Shown piece after piece: positions 11,320 to 48,166 of a stretch of 58,086 nt of DNA. The notes below the pieces were generated by a model, which searched no databases, was not told where the DNA came from, and saw nothing but the letters and a program-made list of their open reading frames with translations. Source of the stretch: an uncultured Bacteroidales bacterium (GTDB taxonomy: Bacteria > Bacteroidota > Bacteroidia > Bacteroidales > Bacteroidaceae); the NCBI GenBank assembly GCA_902802265.1, contig CADCLN010000014.1:1-58086 (forward strand), in the 5' to 3' direction. Numbering within the stretch: position 1 is the stretch's first letter; every line of letters starts with the position of its first letter. The position numbers and the translations under genes were made by a program.

Positions 11320-12858
11320 ATGACTCCATTCAAAAAACTCTGTGTCCTCTGTCTTCTCTGTGCCCTCTGTGCTTCCTGCAATATGGACGTACAACCCGAA
11401 GGACAGATTTCCGACACACAGGCCCTCGACAGTTACAAGGACTGCCGCAACTTCTGGACAGGGCTCTATGCCCTGATGCGCAACGTTACGTCGGGCAACC
11501 ACGTCATTCTTTCCGATATCCAGCTCGACGACTTCCATGCCGTCATGGGGAATGGCAACCGACTCATGGATATCTACAACGGAAACATTTATCCCAACAC
11601 CGAAGAGGTCACGGACATCTACGCTTCCTACTACGCACTCATTGCCCAGTGCAATTTCTTCATTGACGGTGTGCCGCTGACTGTGCAACGTCATAATTTC
11701 CCCTCCACACAAACGGACTCACTCCTGAGCTGCATGGCTGATGCTTACTTCTTCCGATCATACGCCTACAGCCAGTTGGCAAACCTCTTCTGCAGCAGTT
11801 ACATCCATTCCGACATTAACCAGACAGCCAGCGGACTCTCGCTGGTCACAGCCTACAAGCCCAGCAGCGACAACAGTTCTTATCCTGGACGTAGCACCCT
11901 GCAGCAAACTTACCTGCTCATCATGGCTGACTTGCAACAGGCTTACCTGCTCAAAACACAGTCGGGCATCACTCCCCCAGACAACTACTACGTCTCCACT
12001 GCTGCCATCCAAGCCCTCCAAGCACGCATCCTGCTGGCTATGGGTGACAACAAGCGGGCTGCAGAAGTGGCCTCCACCCTGATTGACAGCGGACAATATC
12101 CCCTCACCTCGGCTGCCGACTTCGCCAAGTTGTGGAAACAGGATGAAGGCAGCGAAATCATCTGGCGAGTGCAGGCTGACTATAATTACCACGGACTGCC
12201 CACAGGCAGCGCATTCATGTCGAACAGCCATCATGCCGCCGACTATATCCCCACCAACGACGTGGTCTATCTCTATGAACTGAACGACTGCCGATGGGAT
12301 GCCTACTTCGCCGAATGTTCCATCAACAACACAGGCGGAGAGGGCAAGGTGTTCCGCTTGGCAAAGTACCCAGGCAATCCCGACATCTACGGCACCAGTG
12401 CACAGTCTAACTTCGTCAATATGGCTAAACCCTTCCGTTCAGCCGAACTCTACCTCATCGCAGCAGAGGCTTACGACAACCTGAAGCAGACAGAAAAGGC
12501 ACAAGCCTACCTGCGTCCGCTCGTCACCGCACGCCTTGATGCTGGCTACTACGCTGCCAATGTGGCTCCTCTCACGGGAACGATGCTCACCGAATATATC
12601 CGAGACGAGCGACACCGCGAACTCCTGGCAGAAGGGCACCGACTGGCTGACCTGAAACGCTGGAACACAGGATTCGTCCGAGGCGAAGCACAGGAATGTT
12701 GGGACTTTGACACCCAAAACTGCGAACCCCTGCTGTTTCACACCAACCTGCACCTCAGTTACTCCGCCGATGACTACCGTCTGCTGTGGCCCATCCCTGC
12801 CGACGAGTTCAACGTAAACCCACAAATCAAGGGTCAACAAAACCCAGGCTATTTTTAA
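11320..12858 (+). CDS. SusD/RagB-type surface lipoprotein
   Basis: A 512-residue partner of the SusC transporter that acts as the substrate-binding lid. The leader MTPFKKLCVLCLLCALCASC ends in a lipobox with Cys20 as lipid anchor. Aspartates just after the anchor (NMDVQPEGQISD) suggest export to the cell surface. Family signatures are TPR-like helices, AELYLIAAEAY and the C-terminal YIRDERHRELLAEGHRLADL followed by KRW. ATG 11320 is chosen because it starts the lipoprotein signal; the longer frame runs inside SusC. The signal-peptide DNA (11338-11379) is a copy of the dispersed CTCTGTG repeat, which explains the unusual number of cysteines. Confidence 0.94.
   Translation: MTPFKKLCVLCLLCALCASCNMDVQPEGQISDTQALDSYKDCRNFWTGLYALMRNVTSGNHVILSDIQLDDFHAVMGNGNRLMDIYNGNIYPNTEEVTDIYASYYALIAQCNFFIDGVPLTVQRHNFPSTQTDSLLSCMADAYFFRSYAYSQLANLFCSSYIHSDINQTASGLSLVTAYKPSSDNSSYPGRSTLQQTYLLIMADLQQAYLLKTQSGITPPDNYYVSTAAIQALQARILLAMGDNKRAAEVASTLIDSGQYPLTSAADFAKLWKQDEGSEIIWRVQADYNYHGLPTGSAFMSNSHHAADYIPTNDVVYLYELNDCRWDAYFAECSINNTGGEGKVFRLAKYPGNPDIYGTSAQSNFVNMAKPFRSAELYLIAAEAYDNLKQTEKAQAYLRPLVTARLDAGYYAANVAPLTGTMLTEYIRDERHRELLAEGHRLADLKRWNTGFVRGEAQECWDFDTQNCEPLLFHTNLHLSYSADDYRLLWPIPADEFNVNPQIKGQQNPGYF
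11338..11379 (+). repeat. CTCTGTG repeat copy, coding for the SusD signal peptide
   Basis: The DNA starting CTCTGTGTCCTCTGTCTTCT and running to TTCCTGC is a close match to intergenic copies at 27773-27852 and 48124-48163 (reverse complement). Here it encodes the hydrophobic core and lipobox. Confidence 0.8.
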
Positions 12859-12925
12859 TCACGAAACCCCACAAAAATCGTCATCACGTTATAACGTCAT
12901 AACGAATAAACATCAACCCCTCGAC

Positions 12926-13858
12926 ATGAAACATCTCTGTGCCCTCCTTCTTCTCTGTGCCCTCTGTGCCTCCTGCCAGAAGGGAGACACCTACAATACC
13001 GCCCCATCCACCGTACAGATGGGCACAGCCACCTACACGTTCAAGGAAAGCAAAGGCATCTTCCGCATCCCCATCTCCGTCGCAGGAGAACAGAACGGCC
13101 CCATCCGTGTAGAAATTGCCGTGACAGCTAGCAGCAGCCAGACAGCCATCGAGGACCAGCATTTCTACATCACCAGCAAAACTTTCTATATCCCCGCCGA
13201 CAAACAAACCGTCAACATAGAAATCTGGGCAATAGACGACCACACCATCAACGCCGACCGCACCTTCACCCTGCAAATCGTCCATGCCAACGGAGCCGAG
13301 ATTTCCACCACTCAGTCCACCTGCCATGTCACGTTGCTTGACAACGACCAGATACCCTACGAAAGTCTGCAAGGCATCTGGAATGTGGAAGCCACCGACG
13401 TAAGCGGCGACGACTACACCCGCCAAACCTGGCAAACCCACGTCACCCCCTACGACGAAGGCGACACCCACTACGGCAAACAACTCGCCATGCGAGGCTG
13501 GATGGCAAACGGATACGAATATGACTTCATCACCATGCCCCTCAACTTCCGTTACAACCAGCAAACGGGTACCGTCTCCCTGGGCATAGCCCTCGGCGAA
13601 ACCATTGCCGACTCTATCAATTTCTCCGGCACGACCGACGCATCCGACCCCGACTTCCTCTGCCACGTCGTCTCAGCAGGACTCAGCACCACCTACCTCA
13701 CCAAGGGAGAAATCACTGGCCACATCAACCCCACTGGAGACACCATCGTCTTCGAGGCAGGAATGCCTCTCACAGGCATCATCTACAACAGTCAGGGCAA
13801 ATCCACCGCCACCTGGATGGAACAAGACAGCATCATCATGACCATGAAAAAGTTTTAA
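12926..13858 (+). CDS. Calx-beta domain lipoprotein of the Sus-like locus
   Basis: A 310-residue lipoprotein. MKHLCALLLLCALCASC gives anchor Cys17. Residues about 25-145 look like a Calx-beta domain (FRIPISVAGEQNGPIRVEIA; ADRTFTLQIVHANGAEI; HVTLLDND). The rest is a beta-rich domain with repeated short strands, perhaps lipocalin-like. It follows SusD by 67 bases and probably continues the operon as a surface ligand-binding protein. Its 5' module (about 30 bases of leader plus signal-peptide DNA) is almost the same as that of the unrelated C10 protease gene downstream. Confidence 0.75.
   Translation: MKHLCALLLLCALCASCQKGDTYNTAPSTVQMGTATYTFKESKGIFRIPISVAGEQNGPIRVEIAVTASSSQTAIEDQHFYITSKTFYIPADKQTVNIEIWAIDDHTINADRTFTLQIVHANGAEISTTQSTCHVTLLDNDQIPYESLQGIWNVEATDVSGDDYTRQTWQTHVTPYDEGDTHYGKQLAMRGWMANGYEYDFITMPLNFRYNQQTGTVSLGIALGETIADSINFSGTTDASDPDFLCHVVSAGLSTTYLTKGEITGHINPTGDTIVFEAGMPLTGIIYNSQGKSTATWMEQDSIIMTMKKF
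12935..12976 (+). repeat. CTCTGTG repeat copy, coding for a lipoprotein signal
   Basis: CTCTGTGCCCTCCTTCTTCT onward to CCTCCTGC matches the copies at 11338 and 13923 and the intergenic copies. It encodes LCALLLLCALCASC. Confidence 0.8.
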
Positions 13859-13913
13859 CTCCTCATCGTCATAACGCCAAAACGAATAAACGAATAAACA
13901 TCACCCTCCCAAC

Positions 13914-15686
13914 ATGAAACACCTCTGTGCCCTCCTTCTCCTCTGTGCCCTGTGTGCTTCCGTTTTCGCGGAGCATCGCACCATGGAACAAGCCCAACAA
14001 ATTGCTGCAGACTTCACAGGTACCACCCCCGACGCACTCACTCCCGTCAACAATGTGAAGCAAGCCAAGGGCAGGACAGGCAGCGACCAGCCAGCCTATT
14101 ACATTTTCAACAGTCACCCTGGCTACGTCATCGTCAGCAGCGACGAGCAATGTCTGCCTATCCTGGGCTACAACACCACCGACACCTTCGACCCCACCAA
14201 CCTGCCCGACGGCCTCAACTATTGGCTTGAGTTTCTGAAGGAAGAGTCTCTCTCCCTAACCCCTTCCGCGATGGAGGGAAAAGACAAAGAGCAAGGAGTG
14301 TCGGTTTCGCCTCTCCTCACTTCCCACTGGGGACAAGATTCCCCCTTCAACGACCAAGTACCAGTCCCCTACACCCAAAACACAGGCACCTATAAAGGCC
14401 ATGCCACAGCAGGCTGCATTGCAACAGCCCTGGCACAAATCATGGCGTACTGGCAATACCCCTCACGAGGTCAAGGGGGTACATACACCAACAGCAACTA
14501 CACCTCGGCTACCGTCAATTTCAGCGAACAAACTTACGACTGGAACAATATCCGCAATAACTATGGTTACTACCTCAACGACTACGGACGTACCATGTAT
14601 GCCAACTACACCGATACCGAAGCGCGCGAAGTGGCCAAACTCTGCTACCACATCGGCGTAGCGGTTGACATGAAATGGAACACCGACGGAAAGGGCACAT
14701 CCGCCGCTACCGACGGTAAATCCCTACGCGCCCTTATCCGACACTTCGGCTACAATCCTTACGCTTACCTCCAGCAACGCGACATCCTCAGTCCTGGCGC
14801 CTTCAGGTCCCTCCTTCTTGGCGAACTGCAGGCTGGCCGTCCCATCCCTTATTCAGGCAACTCATCTCACGACGGAGGGACTTTCGGCCATTATTTCATC
14901 CTAGACGGCTACGACGCAAACACCCAACTTTTCCACATCAACTGGGGCTGGCGTGGACTCCACAATGGCTACTTCGCCCTCAGTGCGCTACAGCCAGGGA
15001 GCGACGGTGACGGGGCAGGACTGGGCAACTACAACTATAACCAAAATGCCCTGATCGGCGTACAGCCCACCGAAGCCTACTTAGAATATGCCCCAGCCTT
15101 CAGAGCAAGCCACTTCGCCGTGGTGACACCCTCCTTCGACCGAGGTGGCGGCTACAACAACTGTGCCCGCATCAATGCCCACGATCTCACCTGCCACGAT
15201 GCCTGTTTCACAGGAACCTTCGGACTTGCCCTCTACGACACAAACGGCAATTACGAGACAGGACAATACACCTCCATCAACGGCTTCAACGACGGCACCA
15301 GTTTCGACTACATCACCTTCAGCACACCTCCCTTCAACAAACTCATCCCCTTCGGCACCCACACCATGCGGTTCGTGGCCCGCAGCGACGACGGCACGCT
15401 CTACCCCATCCATGCCACCTACGGTCAGTCCGACTGTTGGAAGGTAGTGGTCACCCCTGGAGCCACCAACCGTGACCCAGGCACCGTCACCGTCACCCCC
15501 CTTCCGCCCATCAATCCCGAACTGGCAGGTATCAGCGGTGTTGAGCAAGACACCCCCACTCCCCTCCGCACCGAATACTACACTCTCAGCGGCATCCGTC
15601 TCTCAGCACCCCGTGCAGGACTCATCATCCAGCGTGACATCTATTCAAACGGAACGGTCAAGACCCGAAAGATGCTCAGCAAATAA
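13914..15686 (+). CDS. C10-family cysteine protease (streptopain/interpain type)
   Basis: A 590-residue secreted protease. A signal peptide (MKHLCALLLLCALCASVFA) precedes a propeptide (about 22-135) and a catalytic domain beginning near VSPLLTSHWGQ. The nucleophile is Cys168 in AGCIATALAQIM and the histidine His326 in GHYFILDGY, followed by HINWGWRG, all typical of C10. After the catalytic domain come beta-sandwich segments and a tail with EYYTLSGIRL, common in secreted Prevotella proteins. The propeptide-catalytic junction (LSLTPSAMEGK) is encoded by DNA resembling the CCCCTAGAGGGG repeat in reverse (14247-14280). It is the last gene of the Sus-like run and probably digests host or diet protein for the SusC/D importer. 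Confidence 0.92.
   Translation: MKHLCALLLLCALCASVFAEHRTMEQAQQIAADFTGTTPDALTPVNNVKQAKGRTGSDQPAYYIFNSHPGYVIVSSDEQCLPILGYNTTDTFDPTNLPDGLNYWLEFLKEESLSLTPSAMEGKDKEQGVSVSPLLTSHWGQDSPFNDQVPVPYTQNTGTYKGHATAGCIATALAQIMAYWQYPSRGQGGTYTNSNYTSATVNFSEQTYDWNNIRNNYGYYLNDYGRTMYANYTDTEAREVAKLCYHIGVAVDMKWNTDGKGTSAATDGKSLRALIRHFGYNPYAYLQQRDILSPGAFRSLLLGELQAGRPIPYSGNSSHDGGTFGHYFILDGYDANTQLFHINWGWRGLHNGYFALSALQPGSDGDGAGLGNYNYNQNALIGVQPTEAYLEYAPAFRASHFAVVTPSFDRGGGYNNCARINAHDLTCHDACFTGTFGLALYDTNGNYETGQYTSINGFNDGTSFDYITFSTPPFNKLIPFGTHTMRFVARSDDGTLYPIHATYGQSDCWKVVVTPGATNRDPGTVTVTPLPPINPELAGISGVEQDTPTPLRTEYYTLSGIRLSAPRAGLIIQRDIYSNGTVKTRKMLSK
13923..13961 (+). repeat. CTCTGTG repeat copy, coding for the C10 protease signal peptide
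   Basis: CTCTGTGCCCTCCTTCTCCT onward, nearly identical to 12935-12976. It differs where TCCTGC becomes TTCCGTT, turning a lipobox into an ordinary signal-peptidase site. Confidence 0.8.
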
Positions 15687-15726
15687 TCACAACCTTTCAC
15701 CCTCTATCATCCTCGCCCTAAAAAAT

Positions 15727-15760
15727 CCTCCCCCTAGAGGGAGGGAGTTAGAGAGGGTCT
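15727..15760 (+). repeat. CCCCTAGAGGGAGGGAGTTA dispersed repeat
   Basis: A copy of the family also at 18721-18752 and 27130-27159, with a partial copy at about 32084-32103. It begins with a small CCCTAGAGGG palindrome and ends in GAGAGGGTCT. Confidence 0.8.
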
Positions 15761-15796
15761 AGATTAAACATTTCTCGAGACAAAACTTTGCTGTTG

Positions 15797-15850
15797 AAAA
15801 TTCAAAACACGGCACCTGTCGTTTCAAAACTTAACTGCCATTAAATTGGA
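15797..15850 (+). repeat. dispersed repeat shared with 48052-48124
   Basis: CAAAACACGGCACCTGTC and AAACTTAACTGCCATTAAAT closely match CACAGCACTTGTC, AAACACGG and AAACTTAACTGCTGTTAAAT at 48060-48121. Confidence 0.6.
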
Positions 15851-15859
15851 CGTATATCT

Positions 15860-15915
15860 ATAAGAAAACGCATCCCCCGATCCGCTGACGGAACGAGGGA
15901 TGTGCTTTCTTATAG
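15860..15915. terminator. bidirectional hairpin terminator between convergent genes
   Basis: TATAAGAAAACGCATCCC pairs with GGGATGTGCTTTCTTATA around a central loop. A/T-rich arms supply T-runs in both directions. It sits between the plus-strand C10 gene and the minus-strand sulfatase-like gene. Confidence 0.75.
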
Positions 15916-15940
15916 GTTCGATTGAGAATGTGGCAGTTGT

Positions 15941-18049
15941 TTACGGTTCGATGATGTTGAAGTTCAAGACGGTTTTGCCAATGCCCGAGAAGAGGCTGGT
16001 GACAGCAGCAGCATTGCCGCTGATGGTAAGTCCTGTGAAGTTGCCATTGAGGTAGTTGACGAGGGCGGCTTTTGTACCGCGGGCTGTAGCGTCAGCCCCG
16101 TCGAAGGTCTCGTTCATGTAGGTAAGAACAACCCCATTCCGACGAACCACGCAGCATTTTTCATCGCCGATGATGAAGTTGACGACGATGTCGTTGTCTT
16201 CAACGGTACGGTAATCGGTAGCAATGGCAGCATACTCAAAAATCATATCAATACTGCCGGCACCAAGCATGTTGGCAAGACCTTCACCCGAACCATAGAG
16301 TGTTTCGGAAGGTGTACCGGCACGCAGTTCCATAGCACCTGTAAGGTAGCAGTTGCGCCAAGTACCGCTTTCACTCTGATAGCCCAACTGTTCCAGTGCG
16401 TCGGCACAGAGACGGCGAGCCTCCATGTTGGAGGGGTCGGCATAGACGAGTTCCTTGGTCACCTGTGCTACCCACTGATATTCGCCCTTGGCATAATCGG
16501 CGCGAGCCATCGAAAGGATGCGTTCAGGATTGCCACCCATGTATTCCACCAGCTTCTTGGCTGTTTCGGAAGGAGTGAGCAGATCGAGGTTGACGGGGTT
16601 GGCATCGTACCATCCCATGTAACGCTGATAGACGGCCTTGATGTTGTGGGAGAGTGTGCCGTAATACTGGCGGGTGTACCACACTTTGTCGAGTTTGGCA
16701 GGCAGTTGCAGGGTGCGGGAAATCTCGGTGGGTGTGAGACCCAGATTGACGTAGTGGAGTGTCTGGTCGTGGATGAACTTATAGATGGCAGCGGTGTTTT
16801 CGAAGTATTCCTTGATGACCTGTGTGCCCCAGTGTGGCCAGTTGTGGCTTTGGAAGACAACGTCGGTTTCGTCAGCAAATTTACGCTCGGCGGCAAGGAT
16901 GTAGTTACACCAACCCTCGGCATCGCGAACCTGGGCACCACGCAGGGTGTAGAGGTTGTGCAGGGTACCTGTGCAGTTTTCTGCCATCCAGAGTGCACGG
17001 TAGTCGGGGAAGTAAGCGTTCATTTCGGCTGGTGCTTCGGTGCCTGGAGTGAGCTGGAAAATGACTGTAGTGCCGTCGATGTCAACTGTGTCGTCCTGGC
17101 AAACCTCGTAGGTAGGCGGCATCAGGGTCAGCGGCGAATTAGTAGATTCGCCCATACCGATACCCATGGCCATACGACCTGTAGTGCCTTTGGGCAGATT
17201 GGCTCCGTACTGGAAGCTGGCACGACGTGACATGGCTGCGCTGCAATAAGCATTTTCAGCAATGACGTGCTTCATGAAGCCCTGAGGTGTGATGACAGCA
17301 ATCTTTCCGCTCTTAATCTGGTCGGCCAAAGAGAGCTTTGCATCGGCTATGTTGGAGGCGTTGACAATGGCTCCGACACCGCCGTAGTGGTCGGCATGGC
17401 TGTGGCTGATGAGGACTGCTACAATGTTGGGATTGGCATCGACGTTGCGCTTGAAAATGTCGAGGGCTGCCTCTGCCACCTCTTTACACATGAGCACATC
17501 GAAAATCATCCAGCCCGTTTTGGTCTTGATGAACGACATGTTTGCCATGTCGTAGCCACGCACCTGATAGATGCCTTCGCAAACCTTGAAGAGTCCGCAC
17601 TGCACATTGCATATAGCGTTACGCCAAAGGCTGGGGTTGACCGTGGAAGGGGCTTCGCCTTCGTCGAGCAGGAACTTGTAGGCTGCCATGTTCCATACTT
17701 CCTGCCCCTTTGCGTTGGTGATGACGAGGTCGGGAGTAGCTTCGATGAGTCCACGCTTGGCATTTTCCAACTCGGAAATGTCGTCGAAATCTAAGCGGTT
17801 AAGCCAATCCCTGTTCAGGGAGTCGGTATGCGACGTGGCATTCTTGTTGGCAGTTGGGTTTTCAGGATCGACTGGGTCAGGATCGACTGGAGTTTTTTCC
17901 TCCTCCTTGAAAAACACGAGACTATCTACATCGTTGGCACGGACAATCTGCTGCTTCTGTCCGTTTTTGTAGAGATAATAACCCTGGGCAAGAGCCTGCT
18001 GTGCCATGCCGCAAAGGAAGAGCATGGAGCAAATAAAATACTTTTTCAT
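15941..18049 (-). CDS. secreted metallo-beta-lactamase-fold protein, alkyl-sulfatase-like
   Basis: A 702-residue exported protein. After a signal peptide (cleavage near ALAQ) comes a short YYLYKNGQKQQIVRANDVDS module common in Bacteroidetes secreted proteins, a Pro/Asp linker, then a metallo-hydrolase domain with the binuclear metal motif HSHADH at residues 216-221. The later helical part and lipid-transfer-like C-terminus resemble the SdsA1-type alkyl sulfatases. A substrate of sulfate esters is inferred from the family; no assay-level evidence is visible. Its ATG overlaps the stop of the upstream 167-residue gene (TAATG), implying translational coupling. Confidence 0.85.
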   Translation of the reverse strand: MKKYFICSMLFLCGMAQQALAQGYYLYKNGQKQQIVRANDVDSLVFFKEEEKTPVDPDPVDPENPTANKNATSHTDSLNRDWLNRLDFDDISELENAKRGLIEATPDLVITNAKGQEVWNMAAYKFLLDEGEAPSTVNPSLWRNAICNVQCGLFKVCEGIYQVRGYDMANMSFIKTKTGWMIFDVLMCKEVAEAALDIFKRNVDANPNIVAVLISHSHADHYGGVGAIVNASNIADAKLSLADQIKSGKIAVITPQGFMKHVIAENAYCSAAMSRRASFQYGANLPKGTTGRMAMGIGMGESTNSPLTLMPPTYEVCQDDTVDIDGTTVIFQLTPGTEAPAEMNAYFPDYRALWMAENCTGTLHNLYTLRGAQVRDAEGWCNYILAAERKFADETDVVFQSHNWPHWGTQVIKEYFENTAAIYKFIHDQTLHYVNLGLTPTEISRTLQLPAKLDKVWYTRQYYGTLSHNIKAVYQRYMGWYDANPVNLDLLTPSETAKKLVEYMGGNPERILSMARADYAKGEYQWVAQVTKELVYADPSNMEARRLCADALEQLGYQSESGTWRNCYLTGAMELRAGTPSETLYGSGEGLANMLGAGSIDMIFEYAAIATDYRTVEDNDIVVNFIIGDEKCCVVRRNGVVLTYMNETFDGADATARGTKAALVNYLNGNFTGLTISGNAAAVTSLFSGIGKTVLNFNIIEP

Positions 18050-18552
18050 TACTTCTTATAGATTTTAAATGATTTATTTCCAAAAACTACTACATAAATG
18101 CCAGAACGGAGCGTGCTGGTAGAGAGGGTGACAACGCCATTGGCATCTGCCCTTCCTGTGGCAAGACACTTTCCGTCAACGGAATAGAGCGAGAGCCCGC
18201 TACAGCCCTGAGCGGTAATTTCAGAGTCTGTAATCTTGAAAGACTCGTCGAAGAGTGACTCCATGCCCGTCTCCACACTCACTTCCTCAATGGTCATCTT
18301 GAGGTATTTTTCCAAAGAGTAGAGAACGGTGACAGTGCCACACTCCAGTTTTACATCGGTGTCGTCGAAGGATACAACAGGCTTTTCTGCCAAGTCGAAG
18401 GCAGTTGTAGCATTATTCACTTCGTGGATAACGACACACATCTTTTTCTCTGCCACATCGTCGGATGCGCCAGAAGCGAACACACAGGCTGGGGCAAGCA
18501 CTACAAGCATCGCCGCCAGAGCTGTTCGCTTAACAAATACTTTCATGTTCAT
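18049..18552 (-). CDS. small secreted protein with C-terminal beta tail
   Basis: A 167-residue exported protein of unknown function with signal peptide (MNMKVFVKRTALAAMLVVLA, cleavage near VFAS). The final about 50 residues (LSLYSVDGKCLATGRADANG, then LRSGIYVVVFGNKSFKIYKK) resemble the C-terminal sorting-type beta domains of Bacteroidetes secreted proteins. An alternative ATG two codons downstream (18546) is possible. It is the first gene of a two-gene operon with the sulfatase-like protein. Confidence 0.7.
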   Translation of the reverse strand: MNMKVFVKRTALAAMLVVLAPACVFASGASDDVAEKKMCVVIHEVNNATTAFDLAEKPVVSFDDTDVKLECGTVTVLYSLEKYLKMTIEEVSVETGMESLFDESFKITDSEITAQGCSGLSLYSVDGKCLATGRADANGVVTLSTSTLRSGIYVVVFGNKSFKIYKK

Positions 18553-18598
18553 AAGAAAAGTTCCTTTCGTGTTTTGGTTAGAAAGATTAAAAATTGGG

Positions 18599-18607
18599 GC
18601 AAAGATA
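18599..18607 (-). promoter_or_regulatory. -7 promoter element for the sulfatase-like operon
   Basis: Minus strand reads TATCTTTGC, about 47 bases before the ATG at 18552. Confidence 0.65.
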
Positions 18608-18671
18608 AAAATAATATTTAATATAATGTATAAATTTTAAAAAAATCAAGCAAATAACCACAAAAAAGCGA

Positions 18672-18752
18672 AAACACACCACAGATTACACGGATTTTTT
18701 AGATTTCACAGATTTTTTATCCTCCCCATAGAGGGGGAGTTAGAGGGGGTCT
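18672..18752. repeat. CACAGATTACACGGATT and CCCCATAGAGGGGGAGTTA repeats
   Basis: 18673-18717 carries CACAGATTACACGGATT and a second CACAGATT copy. 18721-18752 is a copy of the CCCCTAGAGGGG family. The second element overlaps the 3' end of the M20 gene: its reverse complement AAAGACCCCCTCTAA encodes the last residues KDPL and the stop codon. Confidence 0.75.
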
Positions 18753-19783: not shown

Positions 19784-19805
19784 CTGCTTTCATCTTTTTT
19801 CTGCC

Positions 19806-19814
19806 GCAAAGATA
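19806..19814 (-). promoter_or_regulatory. -7 promoter element for the M20 deacylase gene
   Basis: Minus strand reads TATCTTTGC about 23 bases upstream of the ATG at 19783. Confidence 0.65.
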
Positions 19815-19960
19815 AAGAATTTTTTTCTATCTATGCAAATATATTGCTATAAGAGGTATTTTATTTCCCCTTTTTGTGTGTCGTCTAGTCAAATCCACGG
19901 ATTACACAGATGGCACAATTCAATGTCAAAAAGAATCTCTCCGCCCCATTTTTACCAGAA

Positions 19961-20054
19961 TTTACCACAGTTATGGTAAAACTTTACCACTGCATTGGTA
20001 ATGATTTACCACTGCATTGGTAAAAAATTACCGATGCTATGGTAACACTTTACC
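19961..20054 (+). repeat. 22-bp periodic palindrome array B (TTTACC-N-GGTAAA)
   Basis: TTTACC or ATTACC starts at 19961, 19983, 20005, 20027 and 20049, an exact 22-bp period. The first four are complete dyads, such as TTTACCACTGCATTGGTAA; the last is a half site. One more half site (TTTACCAGAA) lies at 19951, out of phase by about half a period. The array sits 120-215 bases before the promoter of the TPR-kinase gene. It may be a multi-site operator or a chromosomal binding array. Confidence 0.85.
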
Positions 20055-20174
20055 AAAGCTACAGCATCGTCGTAACAGCCCTAAAAAGGCTCAAAAACGG
20101 AGAGAATCGGGAAAATTATCACGTTAGGGGTGTTTTTTTCGCATTTCTGTAGGGGAGGAATGATAATAAATGCC

Positions 20175-20183
20175 TAATTTTGC
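20175..20183 (+). promoter_or_regulatory. -7 promoter element for the TPR-kinase operon
   Basis: TAATTTTGC matches TAnnTTTGC, 33 bases before ATG 20216. Confidence 0.65.
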
Positions 20184-20215
20184 AGGGTGTTTTTATTTAT
20201 CTTTATTTATATAAT

Positions 20216-21718
20216 ATGAAAAGGAATATTTTAATCGTATTTTTGAGCCTGCTGCTGGGCCTGACAACAGGTTCTGTACAGGGGGCTGACCTGAGCAGTC
20301 TGCAGGAAAGGGCTGAAGCAGAGAACGGAAAGGGACATGTGGCGAATGCTCGCTCGCTGTTTATCCGTGCGTTTGAAGATTATGTCGGCAAAGGACAAAT
20401 GGCACAGGGTGTGGAGTGCGGCGTTAAGGCTACCGCCTTGTATTACAACGAAAATCTGTACAAAGAAGCTTTCGACCTGTTGCGCCGCATTGACCAGAAC
20501 ATCGAGGCTAACGGCAAGGGGCAGAACAAGGCTGCGTTGCACTACCAAACCTCGAAGGTGCGTTACCAAATGTATATGAAGATGAGGAGGGCTGCCAGTG
20601 CGCAGGAGCAGATTGCCCACATGGAGCAGTATGCTGCCAGCAGCGGCGATGAGGGCATCAAGAATGATTTGCTTTACTGCAAGACCATCTGCTACTACTC
20701 CTTCGGGCAGAACGAGAAGGGGAACGCAACGTTCAAGGAGATGACCAGCAGGCTGACAGCCTCGAAGGAGTATGGCAAGGTGGACGAGGTGTATCAGACA
20801 CTCATTGCCAACGGGCGCAAAAGTGGTAGCGCCACACTGGTGGCCGAGAGCTACAAAAGTTACGTGGCATGGAAGGATTCGGCAAGTGCACAGAAGTTGA
20901 AAGATGAAACTGATGCGCTGAAAGGACAGATTGCCCAGCTGGAGGCTACCATCGCAGAGAAGGACGGCGGGCTGAAGACTCGGCAGGCTGTCATCGTGGG
21001 ACTGGGCATCCTGAGTGCGGTGCTGGCTGCGATACTGGTGCTGGGAGGCTTCGTGCTGATGCGCTTCATCTTCCTTACACGCAAACAGAAGAAGACGATT
21101 CGGATAGCCGATGAGAATAATGCACTGAAGGCTAAGTTTATCAGCAACATCTCGGCTCAGCTGGAACCGACGCTGCAGAAACTGGACAGCCGACTGCCTG
21201 AGGTGAAGGCTTTGCAGGATTTTTCGGCGCACATTCAGACGTTGTCTGACCTGGAGAATTCGGGCGATGGAGACGTGGAACGAGAAGATGTACAGGTGGA
21301 TGCGCTGTGCGAAAATGTGATGAACGAGATACGAAGCAAGGTGAAGAGCGGTGTGACATTGACGGTGGATGCGCCCAAGATGTCGGCAAGCATCAACAGG
21401 GCGTATGTCAGTCACATCTTGCTGCACTTGCTGAACAATGCAGCCATCTATACGCCTGAGGGCGGACAGATTACGCTGGAGTATAAGAAGCGCGGTGCTC
21501 ACAAGCATCAGTTCGTGGTGACAGACACGGGGTGCGGCATCCCTGCCGAAAAGCAGGAGGACATCTTCAAGCCTTTCTTGGAAATCCGCGACTTGACTAC
21601 CGGCGACGGACTGGGTCTGCCCATCTGCAAACGCATGGCTCAGAAAATGGGCGGCGACATAGAAGTGGTCTCCACTTACGTCAAGGGCGCACGCTTCACG
21701 CTGAACCTGCTGGGCTAA
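20216..21718 (+). CDS. TPR membrane protein with histidine-kinase ATPase domain lacking the phospho-acceptor His
   Basis: A 500-residue sensor-like protein: signal peptide (1-23), periplasmic TPR-type helices (about 25-225), coiled coil (225-252), transmembrane segment (258-288), a dimerisation-like helix, and a HATPase domain. The ATPase boxes are present: N-box HLLNNAAIYTPEGG (404-417), G1 DTGCGIP (437-443) and G2 GDGLGLP (463-469). At the place of the usual SHEIRTPL H-box it has SAQLEPTL (residues 313-320), so the phosphorylatable histidine is replaced. It cannot autophosphorylate in the usual way and may act as an ATP-binding switch. It is followed after 16 bases by the TPR-HTH gene, probably its partner. 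ATG 20216 gives a clean signal peptide. Confidence 0.85.
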   Translation: MKRNILIVFLSLLLGLTTGSVQGADLSSLQERAEAENGKGHVANARSLFIRAFEDYVGKGQMAQGVECGVKATALYYNENLYKEAFDLLRRIDQNIEANGKGQNKAALHYQTSKVRYQMYMKMRRAASAQEQIAHMEQYAASSGDEGIKNDLLYCKTICYYSFGQNEKGNATFKEMTSRLTASKEYGKVDEVYQTLIANGRKSGSATLVAESYKSYVAWKDSASAQKLKDETDALKGQIAQLEATIAEKDGGLKTRQAVIVGLGILSAVLAAILVLGGFVLMRFIFLTRKQKKTIRIADENNALKAKFISNISAQLEPTLQKLDSRLPEVKALQDFSAHIQTLSDLENSGDGDVEREDVQVDALCENVMNEIRSKVKSGVTLTVDAPKMSASINRAYVSHILLHLLNNAAIYTPEGGQITLEYKKRGAHKHQFVVTDTGCGIPAEKQEDIFKPFLEIRDLTTGDGLGLPICKRMAQKMGGDIEVVSTYVKGARFTLNLLG

Positions 21719-21734
21719 CAACTGAGGGGATGGA

Positions 21735-22886
21735 ATGAAATACGGTGTCCTGTTCTTGACGATGTGCTTGCTGACGGCATGTGGCAGGTTTGGAAGCGAG
21801 CAGCAGATGCTGGCCGAGATTGACAGTTTGACGAAGGTGAATGCCGACAGCGCAAAGGGGTTGTTGGCGCGGATGGCTGTGCCGGCTGCAGAGAGCGAGG
21901 ATTGGGCGTACTACCAGTTGCTGAGGGTGAAGGTGGATGACAAGATGATGGTGAAACACACGTCGGATTCTGTCATCAACCAAGTGGCCGAGTTTTATGA
22001 ACGAGATAATCGCAGCGGACACTTGGCAGAGGCTTATTACTATGTGGGACGTGCGAATGCTGACATGCAGAACGGAGAGAAGGCTCTGCTATTTTTTCAG
22101 AAAGCCCTGCTGGAGGATAGCACACACGTGACAGTCCACCTGAAAAGCCGCATCTACGCTCAGATGGGCTATGTATATCTGCGCAACGGACTGTTCGACG
22201 AAGCAATCAGTATGCAGCAGCTGGCACATTATTTCTGCAAGCAGGATGGCGACACGCTGGGAATGAGGTATTCGCAGGAAGATATCCAGACCATCCGTGC
22301 GTTGGCGGTGCGTCTGCCGGCTGACAGCATTCAGCAGCAAGAGGTGAGGATGAGAATCAAAAATGTAAATGAGCGGGTGAAGAATCAGTTGCTGAGGAAG
22401 AGGAATACGGACTTGCTGGCTGAGCGGAGTGAGCAGGGACGCAGGTTGTGGGGCATCAGCCTGGCTGCCGTGGCGGTGGTGCTGGGGCTTGTGTTTATCA
22501 GTTTCCGTCGTCGAAAGAAGGTAAAGGAGGATGTTGCCCCTGTGCAGACCAAGCGGCAGTTCTATGATAAGGATGTGAGTCAGTTGTTGGCAGAACGTCT
22601 TGCTGCTGGCAAAGTGCTGAAAGAGGCTGACTGGAAGCTGATAGAGTCGCGACTGCTGGAGTCTTTCCCTACGTTCCGCGACAGCCTTTATTCGCTCTAC
22701 AGTCTTTCGGAAACGGAATATCACATCTGTATGCTTATCAAACTGGAGGTTTCACCGTCGAATATGGCTAAATTGATGGCGACTGCCACAAGCACTATTT
22801 CGCAAAGCCGACTGCGAATGCAACAAAAAGTGTTTGGTGGGCAGGGAAGTGCGAAGGATTGGGACAAGTACGTACTTTCTATCTGA
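21735..22886 (+). CDS. membrane-anchored TPR regulator with C-terminal HTH
   Basis: A 383-residue protein: lipobox LLTAC (Cys16), TPR helices (about 25-225), one transmembrane segment (about 239-257), basic stretch RRRKK, then a cytoplasmic C-terminal domain. Residues about 323-365 (LSETEYHICMLIKLEVSPSN followed by MAKLMATATSTISQSRLRM) look like a LuxR/sigma-region-4-type helix-turn-helix. The layout implies a one-component regulator that senses outside the membrane and binds DNA inside. A lipobox plus a transmembrane helix is unusual; the Cys may simply be part of a normal signal anchor. It is co-transcribed with the pseudo-kinase upstream. Confidence 0.75.
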   Translation: MKYGVLFLTMCLLTACGRFGSEQQMLAEIDSLTKVNADSAKGLLARMAVPAAESEDWAYYQLLRVKVDDKMMVKHTSDSVINQVAEFYERDNRSGHLAEAYYYVGRANADMQNGEKALLFFQKALLEDSTHVTVHLKSRIYAQMGYVYLRNGLFDEAISMQQLAHYFCKQDGDTLGMRYSQEDIQTIRALAVRLPADSIQQQEVRMRIKNVNERVKNQLLRKRNTDLLAERSEQGRRLWGISLAAVAVVLGLVFISFRRRKKVKEDVAPVQTKRQFYDKDVSQLLAERLAAGKVLKEADWKLIESRLLESFPTFRDSLYSLYSLSETEYHICMLIKLEVSPSNMAKLMATATSTISQSRLRMQQKVFGGQGSAKDWDKYVLSI

Positions 22887-22965
22887 TTTTCTACTTTTTG
22901 GCATTACAGTGTAAATTATTTGTGAACGGTCTGTGATAATTGTAAAGGATTTGTGAACGACATTT

Positions 22966-22998
22966 TTTGGTGTCTTTGGGTAAAGACTTTTACCTTTG
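22966..22998 (+). promoter_or_regulatory. promoter with -33 TTTG and -7 TACCTTTG
   Basis: TTTG at 22966-22969 and TACCTTTG at 22991-22998 are separated by 21 bases, matching the Bacteroidetes primary-sigma promoter. Two direct copies of ATTTGTGAACG lie just upstream (about 22918 and 22948) and could be an operator. It drives the DUF4419 gene. Confidence 0.75.
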
Positions 22999-23040
22999 CC
23001 GAAAATTCAAAAAATGTTGAACATTAAAACAATCTTCACA

Positions 23041-24492
23041 ATGAAAAAGACACTTGTTCATTTGCCATTTACTATTTACAATGTGCAGTTTCCCTTGAGG
23101 TGGCTCTGTGTCCTTCTCTGTCTTCTCTGCTTCCTCTGTGCTGCAACGAATGCGCAGGAATTTACATTTACAGTAGATGAAAACCTGCCCGCGCCTAAAG
23201 AGACGTTCTACCCACGCAGTGGGGATGTGATTGCCCAACTCATTCTGAACGACGAGCAAATCAACGGAAAGGATTTGCAGCAGGTGATAGCTACGAGTTT
23301 TCAGAACGACACGTTGGTCAGTGGAGGGAAGGATGTGTTTTTCCATTGCATGGTGAGGGCTTACGCTGACCATCGTCCTGTCTGCATCTCGCCCGACATG
23401 GTGTGGTTGCTCATTAGTCAGGGATTTGCCCGCTATGCGAATGGCCATGCCGAAGAACTACGCAACCAACTGGTAAGCCATGAGGGGAAAATGGATTTGA
23501 TAGTGGAATCGCAGCAGGATTTGTTGTCGGGAAAGGCTGACTGGCAGAAACTGTTGGACGGTTTTGCTGCACAAATCGAGAAACATACGAAGGGGGACAT
23601 CGCACAAACCATCACGGCTGACTTTTCCACCACAGGACAGACGGAGCGTATTGCCTCGGAAATCACGCTGATGGAGAGCGTGAAATCTTATTTTACGTAT
23701 AGAGTTATGCGCATTGCCTGTGGCATTCCTTACATCACGCTGAAGGGTACGCCTCAAGACTGGCAGCGGGTGCTTGACAAAACTCGCAAGCTGGAGAAGT
23801 ACGGTTTGCAGGAATGGGTGAAGAGTCTGGAGCCTGTCCTCACGGAGTTTGTCCTTGCGGCTGAGGGAAAGCCAAACAGGGAGTTCTGGCAATGTATCGT
23901 AAAGAAAGACCGTGTAGAAGAACTGAAGGGCGGTGGCTGCAGCTCTGCCAAGCCCACGGAGTTGGACGGTTGGTTGCTGAAGCTGTTTCCTGACAAGGAC
24001 GGAAAGACGTTGGATAAAGTTCCGAAAACCAAAAGTATGGACTCGGAACGGGTGCGTGTGGGCTTCAAGTACGACGTAATTGACCCCGCGGAGGGTACGG
24101 TGGTGAGCGAAACGCCCATGGAACTGATTTCAGGTTTTGTTGGCATTGCTGTAGATAGCATCACAGGCAAGATGACTCCACGGATTGGTTGGCTGGTGCG
24201 TATTGCCAATGAGGAAGCAGAATCGCTGGAACGACTGAAGTGGCAAGATAAATGGAACGGCGGCATCTATCTGAATGTGGATGAAGTGCCTGAAATTCTG
24301 AAGAAGTTGCCACACATCGAGAGTCTGCAAGTGACGTTTACAGGTAAAGTCGTACTGCCCGAGTGGATGGACACACTGACCATCGACAGACTCTTCGTCA
24401 CGGGTGAAATGAGCGAGCAGGAGAAGAAAGTCCTCCAGAAGCGTTTTCCTGATGCAGAATTTTTTAATACTTCAAATAAGAAACAGAAATGA
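23041..24492 (+). CDS. secreted DUF4419-domain protein
   Basis: A 483-residue exported protein with the DUF4419 hallmark near residues 120-150 (PDMVWLLISQGFARYANGHA). Function of the family is unknown. ATG 23041 gives an atypical 40-residue leader, MKKTLVHLPFTIYNVQFPLR then WLCVLLCLLCFLCAATNAQ. Its DNA is a chain of three dispersed repeats: an ATTTACCATTT-like piece, a CCCTTGAGGTGG piece, and a CTCTGTG repeat (23104-23144). It overlaps the next gene by 4 bases (ATGA) and is thus coupled to it. Confidence 0.8.
   Translation: MKKTLVHLPFTIYNVQFPLRWLCVLLCLLCFLCAATNAQEFTFTVDENLPAPKETFYPRSGDVIAQLILNDEQINGKDLQQVIATSFQNDTLVSGGKDVFFHCMVRAYADHRPVCISPDMVWLLISQGFARYANGHAEELRNQLVSHEGKMDLIVESQQDLLSGKADWQKLLDGFAAQIEKHTKGDIAQTITADFSTTGQTERIASEITLMESVKSYFTYRVMRIACGIPYITLKGTPQDWQRVLDKTRKLEKYGLQEWVKSLEPVLTEFVLAAEGKPNREFWQCIVKKDRVEELKGGGCSSAKPTELDGWLLKLFPDKDGKTLDKVPKTKSMDSERVRVGFKYDVIDPAEGTVVSETPMELISGFVGIAVDSITGKMTPRIGWLVRIANEEAESLERLKWQDKWNGGIYLNVDEVPEILKKLPHIESLQVTFTGKVVLPEWMDTLTIDRLFVTGEMSEQEKKVLQKRFPDAEFFNTSNKKQK
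23104..23144 (+). repeat. CTCTGTG repeat copy, coding for the DUF4419 signal peptide
   Basis: CTCTGTGTCCTTCTCTGTCT onward to CTCTGTGCTGC matches the intergenic copies. It encodes the hydrophobic core LCVLLCLLCFLCAA. Confidence 0.75.
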
Positions 24493-25391
24493 AAAAGACA
24501 TTGATTCATACATTGGCAAGCGTTTGCCTGATGCTGCCCGTTACCTGCCTGGCACAAGAAGAAAATCTCTGCGATTCTGCACTACAAGAAAAAATCGCTC
24601 ATTTGCAGATTGTTCCAAGTTTCAACACTCCTGAAGCCAAAGAGAATCCACGCGGCGTGTATAAACTCATGCACACGATTGGACGCGGAGGGGATATGTT
24701 CAAAGAACCCTTTGACCAATACAAGATTTGCACGGACAGCGTGACGCTGATGATGGTGGTCGATGGCAATCATTACAGACTTGGCAAAAACGATTCGCGC
24801 ATCTTCAACTACACAGGTTCAGCACCCGACCCACAGGATTCCACAGCCACACGCATTTACGACAGCAACCAGCAGCATTTCACACTGAAATGGTGGAGCA
24901 AAAGCGGCAGTGGAGCCATCTTCCCCGACAACGACTGGTGTACGGAGTATTACGAATCGGACAAATATTCCGAAGCAGGAAAAGTAATCTTCGATGCGCT
25001 CATGGTTCCCATTCAACGCGACAAGAACAATCCGTTTCTCGGTTCATGGCGAGTGCTTGGCATGATAGACGAAATGCGCGATATGAATCACGAATTGGAA
25101 CGCCTCAACGAAGAAGACAAGAAACGGAATCCCCGCTCCCATGCGTACCACATCCTCACTCCCACCTATTTCATCAACACGACCGCTACTCAGGGCTTCG
25201 TGCACAACATCACATATAACAGCAAAAGGTCGATCACCATCGGCCCGAGAACTTATCAAATCACTTGGCTTACAAAAAATCGCGTTGCCATTGAACTCCA
25301 CGAAGGTTTTCACGTTGATTATGAGATTTGGGAACGTGTTCCTGGCGGAGAACCTGTTTTCAGTAAATTGGTAAGTCCATACGTAAACTAA
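24489..25391 (+). CDS. secreted protein of unknown function
   Basis: A 300-residue exported protein (signal peptide MKKTLIHTLASVCLMLPVTC, cleavage near LAQ). The first third has a short beta pattern with LGKNDSRIFNYTG; the C-terminal part (LGSWRVLGMIDEMRDMNHEL, ITWLTKNRVAIELHEGFHVDY) has alternating strands resembling lipocalin-like domains. I do not recognise the family securely. It is translationally coupled to the DUF4419 gene through ATGA. A strong terminator follows. Confidence 0.7.
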   Translation: MKKTLIHTLASVCLMLPVTCLAQEENLCDSALQEKIAHLQIVPSFNTPEAKENPRGVYKLMHTIGRGGDMFKEPFDQYKICTDSVTLMMVVDGNHYRLGKNDSRIFNYTGSAPDPQDSTATRIYDSNQQHFTLKWWSKSGSGAIFPDNDWCTEYYESDKYSEAGKVIFDALMVPIQRDKNNPFLGSWRVLGMIDEMRDMNHELERLNEEDKKRNPRSHAYHILTPTYFINTTATQGFVHNITYNSKRSITIGPRTYQITWLTKNRVAIELHEGFHVDYEIWERVPGGEPVFSKLVSPYVN

Positions 25392-25431
25392 CCCCTGCTG
25401 GCGTTTAGAACCAAATGTTTTGAGACGTTTT

Positions 25432-25463
25432 AAGGCGAGAATCTGTTTTCTCGCCTTGTTTTT
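25432..25463 (+). terminator. intrinsic terminator
   Basis: AAGGCGAGAA pairs with TTCTCGCCTT around TCTGTT, followed by GTTTTTCG. It ends the DUF4419 operon. Confidence 0.85.
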
Positions 25464-25471
25464 CGCTAAAA

Positions 25472-25503
25472 ATGGTAAATGATAAATGGTAAATGGTAAA
25501 TAT
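25472..25503 (+). repeat. ATGGTAAAT short direct repeats
   Basis: AATGGTAAATGATAAATGGT and a further ATGGTAAAT lie just before the glyS promoter. The reverse complement ATTTACCATTTACCATTT recurs at 27099-27127, where it encodes the start of the FKBP lipoprotein. Confidence 0.75.
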
Positions 25504-25507
25504 TTCT

Positions 25508-25516
25508 TACCTTTGC
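25508..25516 (+). promoter_or_regulatory. -7 promoter element for glyS
   Basis: TACCTTTGC, 28 bases before ATG 25544. Confidence 0.7.
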
Positions 25517-25543
25517 ACGATAATTTGTAAAACAACTAACATA

Positions 25544-27097
25544 ATGGCACAGCAAGAAGACATTTTCAAGAAAGTGGTCAGCCACTGCAAGGAGTACGGA
25601 TTTGTATTCCCATCTTCAGAGATTTACGACGGACTGGGTGCTGTATATGACTATGGTCAGAACGGCGTGGAGTTGAAAAACAATATCAAGCAGTACTGGT
25701 GGCAGTACATGGTGCTGCTGCACGAGAATATCGTGGGCATCGACTCTGCCATCTTTATGCACCCCACCATCTGGAAGGCATCCGGCCACGTGGACGCATT
25801 CAACGATCCACTGATTGATAACCGCGACTCGAAGAAGCGTTATCGTGCAGACGTGCTCATCGAAGAGCAGATTGCCAAGTATGACGACAAGATTGAGAAG
25901 GAGGTAGCCAAGGCCCGCAAGCGTTTTGGCGACAGTTTCGACGAAGCTCAGTATCGTGCCACTTCAGCCCATGTGCTGGAGAATCAGGCCAAGCGCGATG
26001 CCCTGCACCAACGGTATCAGGAGGTGATGAACGCTCCTGGTGGCATTGACCTGGAAGGCATGAAGCAGATTATTCTGGACGAAGAAATCGTCTGCCCCAT
26101 CAGCGGAACGCGCAACTGGACTGACGTGCGCCAGTTCAACCTGATGTTCAAGACGGAAATGGGGGCTGCTGCTGAAGGCGCATCAACCATCTATCTGCGT
26201 CCAGAAACCGCACAGGGAATCTTTGTGAACTACCTGAACGTGCAGAAGACTGGCCGCATGAAGCTTCCTTTCGGCATCGCTCAGATTGGCAAGGCTTTCC
26301 GCAACGAAATCGTGGCTCGTCAGTTCATCTTCCGTATGCGCGAATTTGAACAGATGGAGATGCAGTTCTTCGTAAAACCTGGCACAGAGCTGCAATGGTT
26401 TGAGGAATGGAAGAAGCGCCGCATGGCTTGGCATCAGGCATTGGGCTTCGGGGCAGAGAATTACCGTTTCCACGACCACGACAAACTGGCTCACTACGCC
26501 AATGCTGCTACCGACGTGGAATTCAAGATGCCATTCGGTTTCAAGGAGGTGGAAGGCATCCACAGCCGTACTGATTTCGACCTCAGCCAGCACGCTAAAT
26601 ACAGCGGCAAGAAGATTGAATACTTCGACCCCGAAGAAAATGCTTCTTACACCCCATACGTCATCGAGACTTCCATCGGCGTGGACCGTATGTTCCTCTC
26701 CGTCATCTGCCACAGCTATTGCGAAGAGAAACTGGAAGGCGGCGACACACGTGTGGTACTCCGTCTGCCTGCAGCCCTCGCTCCTATCAAGCTGGCAGTT
26801 TTCCCACTCACCAAAAAGGATGGTCTGCCAGAGAAGGCTCGCGAAATCATCGACGACCTGAAGTTCCACTTCAACTGCAAATATGAAGAGAAAGACCAGA
26901 TTGGCAAGCGTTATCGCCGCCAGGATGCCATCGGTACTCCCTTCTGCGTCACAGTTGACAACCAGACACTGGAGGACAACACCGTGACTCTGCGTTACCG
27001 CGACACCATGGAGCAGAAGCGTGTGAACATTGCTGACCTGCGTAGCATCATCGAAGACCAAGTGAGCATTACCAGTCTGCTGAAGAACCTCAAGTAA
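25544..27097 (+). CDS. glyS: glycyl-tRNA synthetase (single-chain type)
   Basis: A 517-residue class II synthetase of the dimeric eukaryote/Gram-positive-like type that charges tRNA-Gly. Visible motifs are the N-terminal GFVFPSSEIYDGLGAVYDYG, motif 2 region IGKAFRNEIVARQFIFRMRE with FEQMEMQFF, motif 3 near SIGVDRMFLS, and a C-terminal anticodon-binding domain (APIKLAVFPLTKKDGLPEKA). ATG 25544 starts the conserved protein; the longer frame enters the promoter. Length is normal. Confidence 0.96.
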   Translation: MAQQEDIFKKVVSHCKEYGFVFPSSEIYDGLGAVYDYGQNGVELKNNIKQYWWQYMVLLHENIVGIDSAIFMHPTIWKASGHVDAFNDPLIDNRDSKKRYRADVLIEEQIAKYDDKIEKEVAKARKRFGDSFDEAQYRATSAHVLENQAKRDALHQRYQEVMNAPGGIDLEGMKQIILDEEIVCPISGTRNWTDVRQFNLMFKTEMGAAAEGASTIYLRPETAQGIFVNYLNVQKTGRMKLPFGIAQIGKAFRNEIVARQFIFRMREFEQMEMQFFVKPGTELQWFEEWKKRRMAWHQALGFGAENYRFHDHDKLAHYANAATDVEFKMPFGFKEVEGIHSRTDFDLSQHAKYSGKKIEYFDPEENASYTPYVIETSIGVDRMFLSVICHSYCEEKLEGGDTRVVLRLPAALAPIKLAVFPLTKKDGLPEKAREIIDDLKFHFNCKYEEKDQIGKRYRRQDAIGTPFCVTVDNQTLEDNTVTLRYRDTMEQKRVNIADLRSIIEDQVSITSLLKNLK

Positions 27098-27098
27098 T

Positions 27099-27199
27099 TT
27101 ACCATGTACCATTTACCATTTACCATTTCTTCCCCTAGAGGGGTAGTTAGAGGGGGTCTCTTTCTCTGTCTCCTCGGTGCCCTCTGCACCACTTCCTGC
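27099..27199 (+). repeat. composite of three dispersed repeats encoding a signal peptide
   Basis: 27099-27127 is ATTTACCAT direct repeats, 27130-27159 a CCCCTAGAGGGG family copy, and 27162-27199 a diverged CTCTGTG copy ending in CTTCCTGC. All three are seen separately elsewhere in non-coding DNA. Confidence 0.75.
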
Positions 27200-27760: not shown

Positions 27761-27772
27761 GGGTTGTACACG

Positions 27773-27852
27773 GAGAGCACAGAGAAGACAGAGAGCACAG
27801 AGATTTGTACCATCATGTACGTTTCTCTGTGCTCTCCGTCTTCTCTGTATTC
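27773..27852. terminator. inverted CTCTGTG repeats forming a terminator-like hairpin
   Basis: The 18 bases from 27786 pair with 27824-27841 with one mismatch, and an inner GTAC/GTAC pair extends the stem. The arms are two inverted CTCTGTG copies. It lies between convergent FKBP and PepSY-like genes and may stop transcription from both sides, though no strong T-run is present. Confidence 0.6.
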
Positions 27853-27867
27853 TCTATACAATGACTT

Positions 27868-48163: not shown

Positions 48164-48166
48164 GTA

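Follow-up and report, generated by a model that had tools for sequence, protein, structure and literature searches.

Repetitive extragenic palindromic (REP) sequences and bacterial interspersed mosaic elements (BIMEs) are short intergenic repeats that often stand as inverted pairs forming hairpins, and the uptake signal sequences of Haemophilus and Neisseria are likewise short and dispersed, are found as inverted pairs between genes and in tolerated reading frames within them, and reach hundreds of copies or more. Here we describe a dispersed repeat of ~34 nt with a 9-bp pseudo-period, CTCTGTGYCCTCTGTCTTCTCTGTG, in a 58,086-nt contig of an uncultured Bacteroidales bacterium (CADCLN010000014.1 of assembly GCA_902802265.1, Bacteroidaceae; this whole contig is the window). 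Like REP sequences and BIMEs, it is a short intergenic repeat that often forms inverted pairs with hairpin potential, and like uptake signal sequences it is dispersed, occurs as inverted pairs and is tolerated in proteins; unlike REP sequences mobilised by REP-associated tyrosine transposases (RAYTs), it is not closely tracked by Y1 transposase genes, and unlike uptake signal sequences it has 27 copies in the genome of the window at the threshold used, rather than hundreds or more. From the comparisons below we consider it very probable that the repeat was kept as the hydrophobic core (h-region) of new Sec signal peptides where it lay beside genes of proteins with predicted export.

Three described elements come close. 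Rickettsia palindromic elements of ~150 bp are dispersed repeats that stand in frame within unrelated protein genes (PMC10969869), and in this the present repeat resembles them; it differs in being ~34 nt long and 9-bp periodic, and in standing at the N-terminus as a predicted export signal. The term 'signal peptide' does not occur in that review. The enterobacterial element RU-2 contributes to the signal peptide predicted for YPO1552, and similar proteins of other genera have unrelated signal sequences (PMC2759123): this is the same idea for one gene, whereas here, with a repeat far from the 103-168 bp of RU-1, RU-2 and RU-3, one element is found in 14 leaders of one genome and in leaders of two genera, with replacement apparent at the level of orthologues. 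PARCELs are dyad-symmetric, repeat-coding DNA found over distant taxa and co-opted into membrane proteins; unlike the present repeat, they encode tandem 25-residue amphipathic domains and not signal-peptide cores (PMC2996958).

Thus, with RU-2, the Rickettsia elements and PARCELs as precedents, the principle is already known from single cases. New within the literature searched are the scale, the replacements at orthologue level, the fact that both arms and both strands are used, and the presence of the repeat across domains of life: a string search for CTCTGTGTCCTCTGTG gave no match, six variant strings matched three papers, of which the sole bacterial one has the string in a primer upstream of B. 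fragilis BF2782, and our topic and string searches turned up no publication that deals with the repeat. Signal peptides evolve quickly, and where one came from can seldom be traced. As the source DNA is likely still present between genes of the same genome, and orthologues show the prior state, the way in which a signal peptide arises from non-coding DNA can here be put to a direct test.

Repeat copies and leaders in the genome of the window

A search of the window with a 20-mer of the repeat, allowing three mismatches, returned five matches, where 100 dinucleotide shuffles gave 0.01 on average, and all repeat places that an earlier note on this DNA had listed are present. Three of them, strong matches on the plus strand, encode the h-region of a leader: that of a SusD-like lipoprotein at 11338..11371 (gene 11320-12858, leader MTPFKKLCVLCLLCALCASC), of a Calx-beta lipoprotein at 12935..12968 (gene 12926-13858, leader MKHLCALLLLCALCASC) and of a C10 peptidase at 13923..13956 (gene 13914-15686, leader MKHLCALLLLCALCASVFAE). 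For two further plus-strand places, where the earlier note had likewise seen a coding sequence of a hydrophobic core, the match is diverged: the leader of a DUF4419 protein at 23104..23142 (open reading frame 22996-24492) has 10 mismatches at 31 positions and that of an FKBP lipoprotein at 27162..27195 (gene 27104-27760) has 12. Between genes, an inverted pair begins 8 bp past the FKBP stop codon, with its left arm on the minus strand (27769..27802) and its right arm on the plus strand (27825..27858); this pair, at 27769-27858, corresponds to the two inverted copies suspected near 27773-27852 and folds at -58.9 kcal/mol (z -10.96). The copy suspected near 48124-48163 is a lone intergenic one on the minus strand (48125..48158).

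The genome of the window (G000; 2.88 Mb on 63 contigs, the window being contig C14) has 32 matches to the 25-mer CTCTGTGYCCTCTGTSTTCTCTGTG with up to three mismatches (18 forward, 14 reverse), and the reversed pattern, used as control, has none. Five overlapping matches were merged by hand, leaving 27 copies. With gene borders taken from open reading frames and no gene caller, 11 of these are leader cores, one is a leader n-region, one is internal and antisense (inside a DsbD-like gene on contig C13) and 14 are intergenic; inverted pairs of varying spacing hold ten of the intergenic copies. The 11 leaders found at threshold become 14 when the diverged ones of DUF4419, FKBP and a second C2 lipoprotein are added.

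Twelve of the 14 leader proteins are a SusD, a Calx-beta, a C10 peptidase, a DUF4419, an FKBP, a Fib_succ_major, a DUF4847, a DUF4837, a GH28, a GH97, a DUF6055 and a TPR protein; the remaining two are L030, which has no Pfam match, and the second C2 lipoprotein, which was not in the Pfam scan. The five leader proteins of the window each match a different Pfam family, in line with the view that they are otherwise unrelated, and among all leader proteins scanned, from this and other genomes, 18 of 20 have a family match. In such genomes, Cys-rich leaders may thus resemble each other without homology of the proteins that carry them.

All 14 leaders carry the repeat in sense and in the LCxLC frame (LCxLCLLCALC), and are thus Cys/Leu-rich just as the repeat translates; as 9 is a multiple of 3, the frames of the repeat stay periodic. 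The hydropathy of these leaders is 2.8-3.5, compared with 1.9-3.1 for eight hand-picked ordinary leaders of orthologues, and the other five frames of the repeat have lower values (1.98 and 2.13 in sense, below zero in all three antisense frames). Judged by eye and by hydropathy, the leaders have the layout of Sec signal peptides, with a positively charged n-region, an h-region of ~10-15 residues and a cleavage site. A Q follows the likely cleavage site in the TPR, GH28, GH97, DUF4419 and DUF6055 leaders, which fits the Q-rule for signal-peptide cleavage in Bacteroidetes (PMC5837995). The repeat gives the hydrophobic core only: GCYTCYTGY, which encodes a lipobox, follows the repeat in 6 of the 14 leaders and in none of the 14 intergenic copies, and the suggestion that the repeat itself often codes for the lipobox is thus not borne out.

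Since an h-region permits few amino acids, hydrophobic leaders could resemble the repeat merely by convergence, through Leu/Cys codon bias. The codons themselves speak against this: Leu and Cys are mostly encoded by CTC/CTT and TGT in the leaders, whereas CTG and TGC are commonest in the window genes, which were picked by hand for codon usage. When 13 leaders (the second C2 lipoprotein was left out) were recoded synonymously 20,000 times each with this codon usage and scored with a matrix to which the 14 intergenic copies alone contributed, the observed score was reached in 0, 0, 1, 9, 11, 22, 23, 38, 67, 99, 232, 249 and 427 draws, 99 being the count for FKBP and 427 that for DUF4419. Orthologue leaders outside the repeat-bearing clade are not of the LCxLC type either, and convergence is exceedingly improbable; codon bias, which the earlier note had named as a possible objection, does not refute recruitment of the repeat.

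Some of the leaders are evidently alike beyond the repeat. SusD and DUF4847 are identical at 29 of 29 nt upstream of it, the C10 peptidase gene has 29 of 33 upstream nt in common with the Calx-beta gene, and between start and repeat 13 of 18 bases are the same in the adjacent genes for GH97 and DUF6055. A second dispersed motif, TTTACCATTTACC-like, lies upstream of the repeat in FKBP, DUF4419 and a Fib_succ lipoprotein (window 27104-27129 and 23059-23081; L015) and translates as HLPFTIY at the extreme N-terminus. These likenesses, together with GCYTCYTGY being common to six leaders and to no intergenic copy, would be expected if just one gene had gained the repeat leader and the cassette had then been copied by gene conversion. 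However, beyond these cases the sequences upstream of the leaders showed no similarity to one another at E 1e-3, the TPR leader holds both arms of an inverted pair, a DUF6089 leader in another genome (G014) is in another frame, and different proteins have the leader in a different genus (g11), all of which makes a single recruitment improbable.

In the FKBP leader, a further stretch, CCCCTAGAGGGGTAGTTAGAGGGGGTC, separates the two motifs (window 27132-27158), and a similar one precedes the GH28 leader (L037).

Probable replacement of leaders among orthologues

Mature proteins were used to search 45 genomes of the genus, in seven orthologue sets (GH97, TPR, DUF6055, FKBP, DUF4419, DUF6089 and SusD; Calx-beta, C10 and the remaining leader proteins were left out), and the 130 nt before the mature start were scored against the 34-nt consensus, which has 31 specified bases. 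Up to 30 loci were taken per gene, from 33 matches listed for GH97, 45 for TPR, 31 for DUF6055, 41 for FKBP, 46 for DUF4419 and 40 for DUF6089; some genomes contribute two loci.

Only the G000 locus has a repeat leader among the 30 of GH97 (1 mismatch) and among the 30 of DUF6055 (8 mismatches), the other 29 having at least 14 in either set. Three of 30 TPR loci have a repeat leader (G042 with 2, G000 with 3 and G014 with 4 mismatches; the other 27 at least 13), and so have three of 30 FKBP loci (G014 with 5, G042 with 6 and G000 with 12; the other 27 at least 14): the FKBP copy of G000 is marginal by itself, and its orthologues in G014 and G042 are closer to the consensus. For DUF4419, two of 30 loci have the repeat (G014 with 4 and G000 with 10 mismatches) and the other 28 have 15-20, nine of these being uninformative on the leader because at least 106 open codons precede the compared start. 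Orthologues of DUF4419 and FKBP outside the repeat-bearing clade have 14-20 mismatches. The DUF6089 set has a single repeat leader, in G014 (4 mismatches), which reads MGSLSVFSVFSVLLVLPAYS before Q in frame +1 and is found in G014 only; the other 29 loci, including that of G000, have at least 15. Of the two SusD loci, that of G000 has no mismatch and the single orthologue found (G001) has 18 and an ordinary leader.

Among the loci examined, repeat leaders in the seven sets are thus restricted to G000, G014 and G042, and the comparison of orthologues that the earlier note had proposed speaks for recruitment. The remaining orthologues mostly have ordinary leaders, for example MKRLFYILPMLTLLFLSSC, before the same mature protein, so that the leader appears to have been replaced and the protein kept; ordinary leaders in the nearest relatives and in the rest of the genus suggest that an old leader was displaced.

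The TPR gene allows one such replacement to be followed in its parts. In G034, G039, G004 and G005, its start overlaps the end of the upstream gene, presumably a peptide deformylase gene judging by motifs of this enzyme, and the leader reads MQAK..KA before Q. In G000 (contig C44), an inverted pair of the repeat fills the stretch between the upstream stop and the same mature Q, and translation from the ATG that overlaps this stop (ATGA) would yield MIKYRAHREDRGHREFLRLRLSCLLRLCVLCFLCVLCEPARA before Q, with its basic n-region encoded by the left arm and its hydrophobic core by the right arm. G014 and G042 have diverged forms. The RNA of the leader folds at -62.4 kcal/mol right after the likely start codon (L255 positions 1381-1500), and this hairpin may regulate translation.

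Folding is not confined to the TPR leader. Inverted pairs on contigs C1, C16 (45.1 kb) and C39 of G000 lie between convergent open reading frames, and the pairs of C39 and C16 fold at -65.5 and -77.4 kcal/mol, beside the -58.9 kcal/mol of the window pair (z -11 to -14). Strong folds and a position between convergent reading frames make a function at RNA ends plausible, and the element could mainly be an RNA hairpin, acting as bidirectional terminator or in the protection of mRNA ends, with use in leaders as a by-product; this would be compatible with recruitment as h-region. As a main role it is rather unlikely: a scan of window 27500-28200 found no intrinsic terminator with a T-run, and leader copies are mostly single arms.

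Leaders also occur in other genomes. With at most one mismatch, a 23-mer of the repeat is present in 7 of the 45 genomes searched in the genus and in 25 of the 399 in the family; the reversed control gave no match in the genus scan and one (G253) in the family scan. Forty stretches were examined, the places of G019, G021, G126, G141 and G385 being read in part. All 26 matches of G014 lie within these stretches, and repeat leaders were found there, to give examples and not a full tally, in an SLT transglycosylase, a GH28 protein, L199 (without Pfam match), the TPR protein, DUF6089 (in frame +1), FKBP and DUF4419; L185, with two copies, is unclassified. In genus g11, the repeat is in the leaders of a DUF4960, a GH32 and an HlyD protein of G357, and in that of a G385 protein similar to this HlyD protein. 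The N-termini of L196 and L199 ahead of the repeat leader, MYPFLIPHSSFLIPQ and FHIPHSSFLIPQ, look like another translated intergenic motif.

We favour recruitment of the repeat as h-region, and it may have come about as follows. A function at RNA ends between genes would place copies near gene borders. One periodic frame gives a strongly hydrophobic string of Leu, Cys, Ala and Val with the length of a signal-peptide core, and a copy or inverted pair that had come to lie where the gene of an exported protein begins could then be kept as h-region, when the old leader was lost or overwritten. The adjoining DNA would supply the n-region and the cleavage site (a lipobox Cys, or a site before Q), with the TPR gene as an exception in which the other arm of the pair would supply the n-region, and some leaders would later have spread by copying from gene to gene. 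With likely copies counted once, we infer that the repeat was captured separately about 10 times in G000, a further three times in G014 and two or three times in g11. The proposal that the repeat was recruited several times as a leader is thus supported and can be refined: the repeat contributes the h-region only, some leaders were probably copied, and the repeat is not confined to one family. Identity of the DNA, orientation, frame, presence or absence in orthologues and the codon null are direct observations, whereas displacement of an old leader and export by the new one are inferred.

Several points weigh against this reading. The signal peptides were assigned by eye and hydropathy and export is predicted; along the repeat array nearly every Cys has a Cys at -3, which is unusual for a lipobox, and the hairpin of the TPR leader may impede translation. 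The FKBP and DUF4419 leaders of G000 are diverged and weak when taken alone, and all leaders beyond the five of the earlier note came out of the repeat search itself, so that selection affects their P values. In G014, GH97 and DUF6055 have ordinary leaders although this genome is rich in the repeat, and at 12 loci read in the repeat-bearing genomes G019 and G021 no convincing leader was found. The assemblies are incomplete (that of G000 is 85.65% complete).

Antisense copies within reading frames

Several copies lie antisense within open frames, where they encode linkers similar to TEGTEKTEGTE. In proteins of G126, G141 and G385, the linker precedes a similar C-terminal tail (YNLQGQ..GINI..GKKVLVK and variants), which had no family match in the libraries scanned. 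In G357, a linker separates the UPF0004 domain of an MtaB-type enzyme from its radical SAM domain, and in G014 one stands where the two halves of a DHODB/glutamate synthase fusion meet. Others are found in a topoisomerase III (G126) and in DsbD-like proteins from both G014 and G141, to which a protein of G000 is similar. Synonymous recoding attains the DNA match of the linkers in 1-35 of 20,000 draws over 11 stretches, which were chosen by the repeat search and are subject to the same selection. The antisense strand may be tolerated as a linker rich in T, E, K and G, an indication that one dispersed repeat may be of use whichever of its strands is read.

At L009 (C2:28618), an antisense copy stops directly before an ATG (CACAGAGGATATG), and because of this position its purine-rich strand may act as a ribosome-binding site.

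Distribution and movement of the repeat

The repeat is far more widespread than the Bacteroidaceae lineage and occurs in many bacterial phyla and in archaea. The pattern CTCTGTGNCCTCTGTNNTCTCTGTG was found in at least 116 stretches of a collection of species genomes, 80 of them as named loci; those listed include Planctomycetota, Chloroflexota, beta- and gammaproteobacteria, one cyanobacterium, Nitrospira, Acidobacteriota and Methanosarcinales. It is also present in 53 stretches of viral contigs, among the matches listed. The 80 named loci hold 86 exact matches, of which 79 continue with G, 21 of these with GG(T/C)TAA. Fifteen frame entries among the 86 matches are open for at least 150 codons; being open frames only, they are candidates for gene leaders. 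No Rfam family scored above its gathering threshold in the window and 20 loci.

These data bear on the direction of the transfer. The leaders could be the source and the intergenic copies relics of signal-peptide DNA from decayed genes, and in G000 leader and intergenic copies are indeed about equally close to the consensus. Against this, ten of the 14 intergenic copies stand in inverted pairs and none is followed by lipobox DNA, and the repeat extends across phyla and into archaea. There, the leader frame of 50 of the 86 exact matches runs into a stop codon before 20 codons are passed, and for 46 of them an inverted half-copy lies no more than 120 nt upstream, a count without a chance control. 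We regard an origin of the repeat from leaders as very improbable.

A broader view, which we put forward tentatively and as somewhat less probable than its opposite, is that the repeat is a general, coding-compatible selfish sequence, from Planctomycetota to methanogens, with one strand suited as signal-peptide core and the other as flexible linker (TEGTEKTEGTE), and with an inverted pair amounting to a complete signal peptide of basic n-region and h-region; its recurrent capture would then be a standing route by which Bacteroidota replace their signal peptides and interdomain linkers.

As a candidate for the mover, a Y1 (RAYT-type) transposase was considered and set aside for the present: PF01797 is present in 3 of 7 repeat-bearing genomes and 5 of 38 others, and it was not found in the incomplete assemblies of G014 and G021 despite their many repeats. 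A repeat copy is ~0.4 kb away from the sole Y1 gene detected in G000 (C23:37777-38118), but the inverted repeats that flank this gene are, by eye, its own and of a different kind; at L407, such a flanking inverted repeat (GGGGTAGCCAGCCATACAGCC...) was seen by eye around the Y1 gene at ~1400-2150.

The lone intergenic copy of the window (48125..48158) has flanks that are 78.6% alike over 351 nt with contig C23. In both places, window 48165-48360 and L407 of C23, there is an array of GCACAGTTCTCCC-like units in both orientations, which adjoins the lone copy in the window, and one of these two G000 loci is near the Y1 transposase gene.

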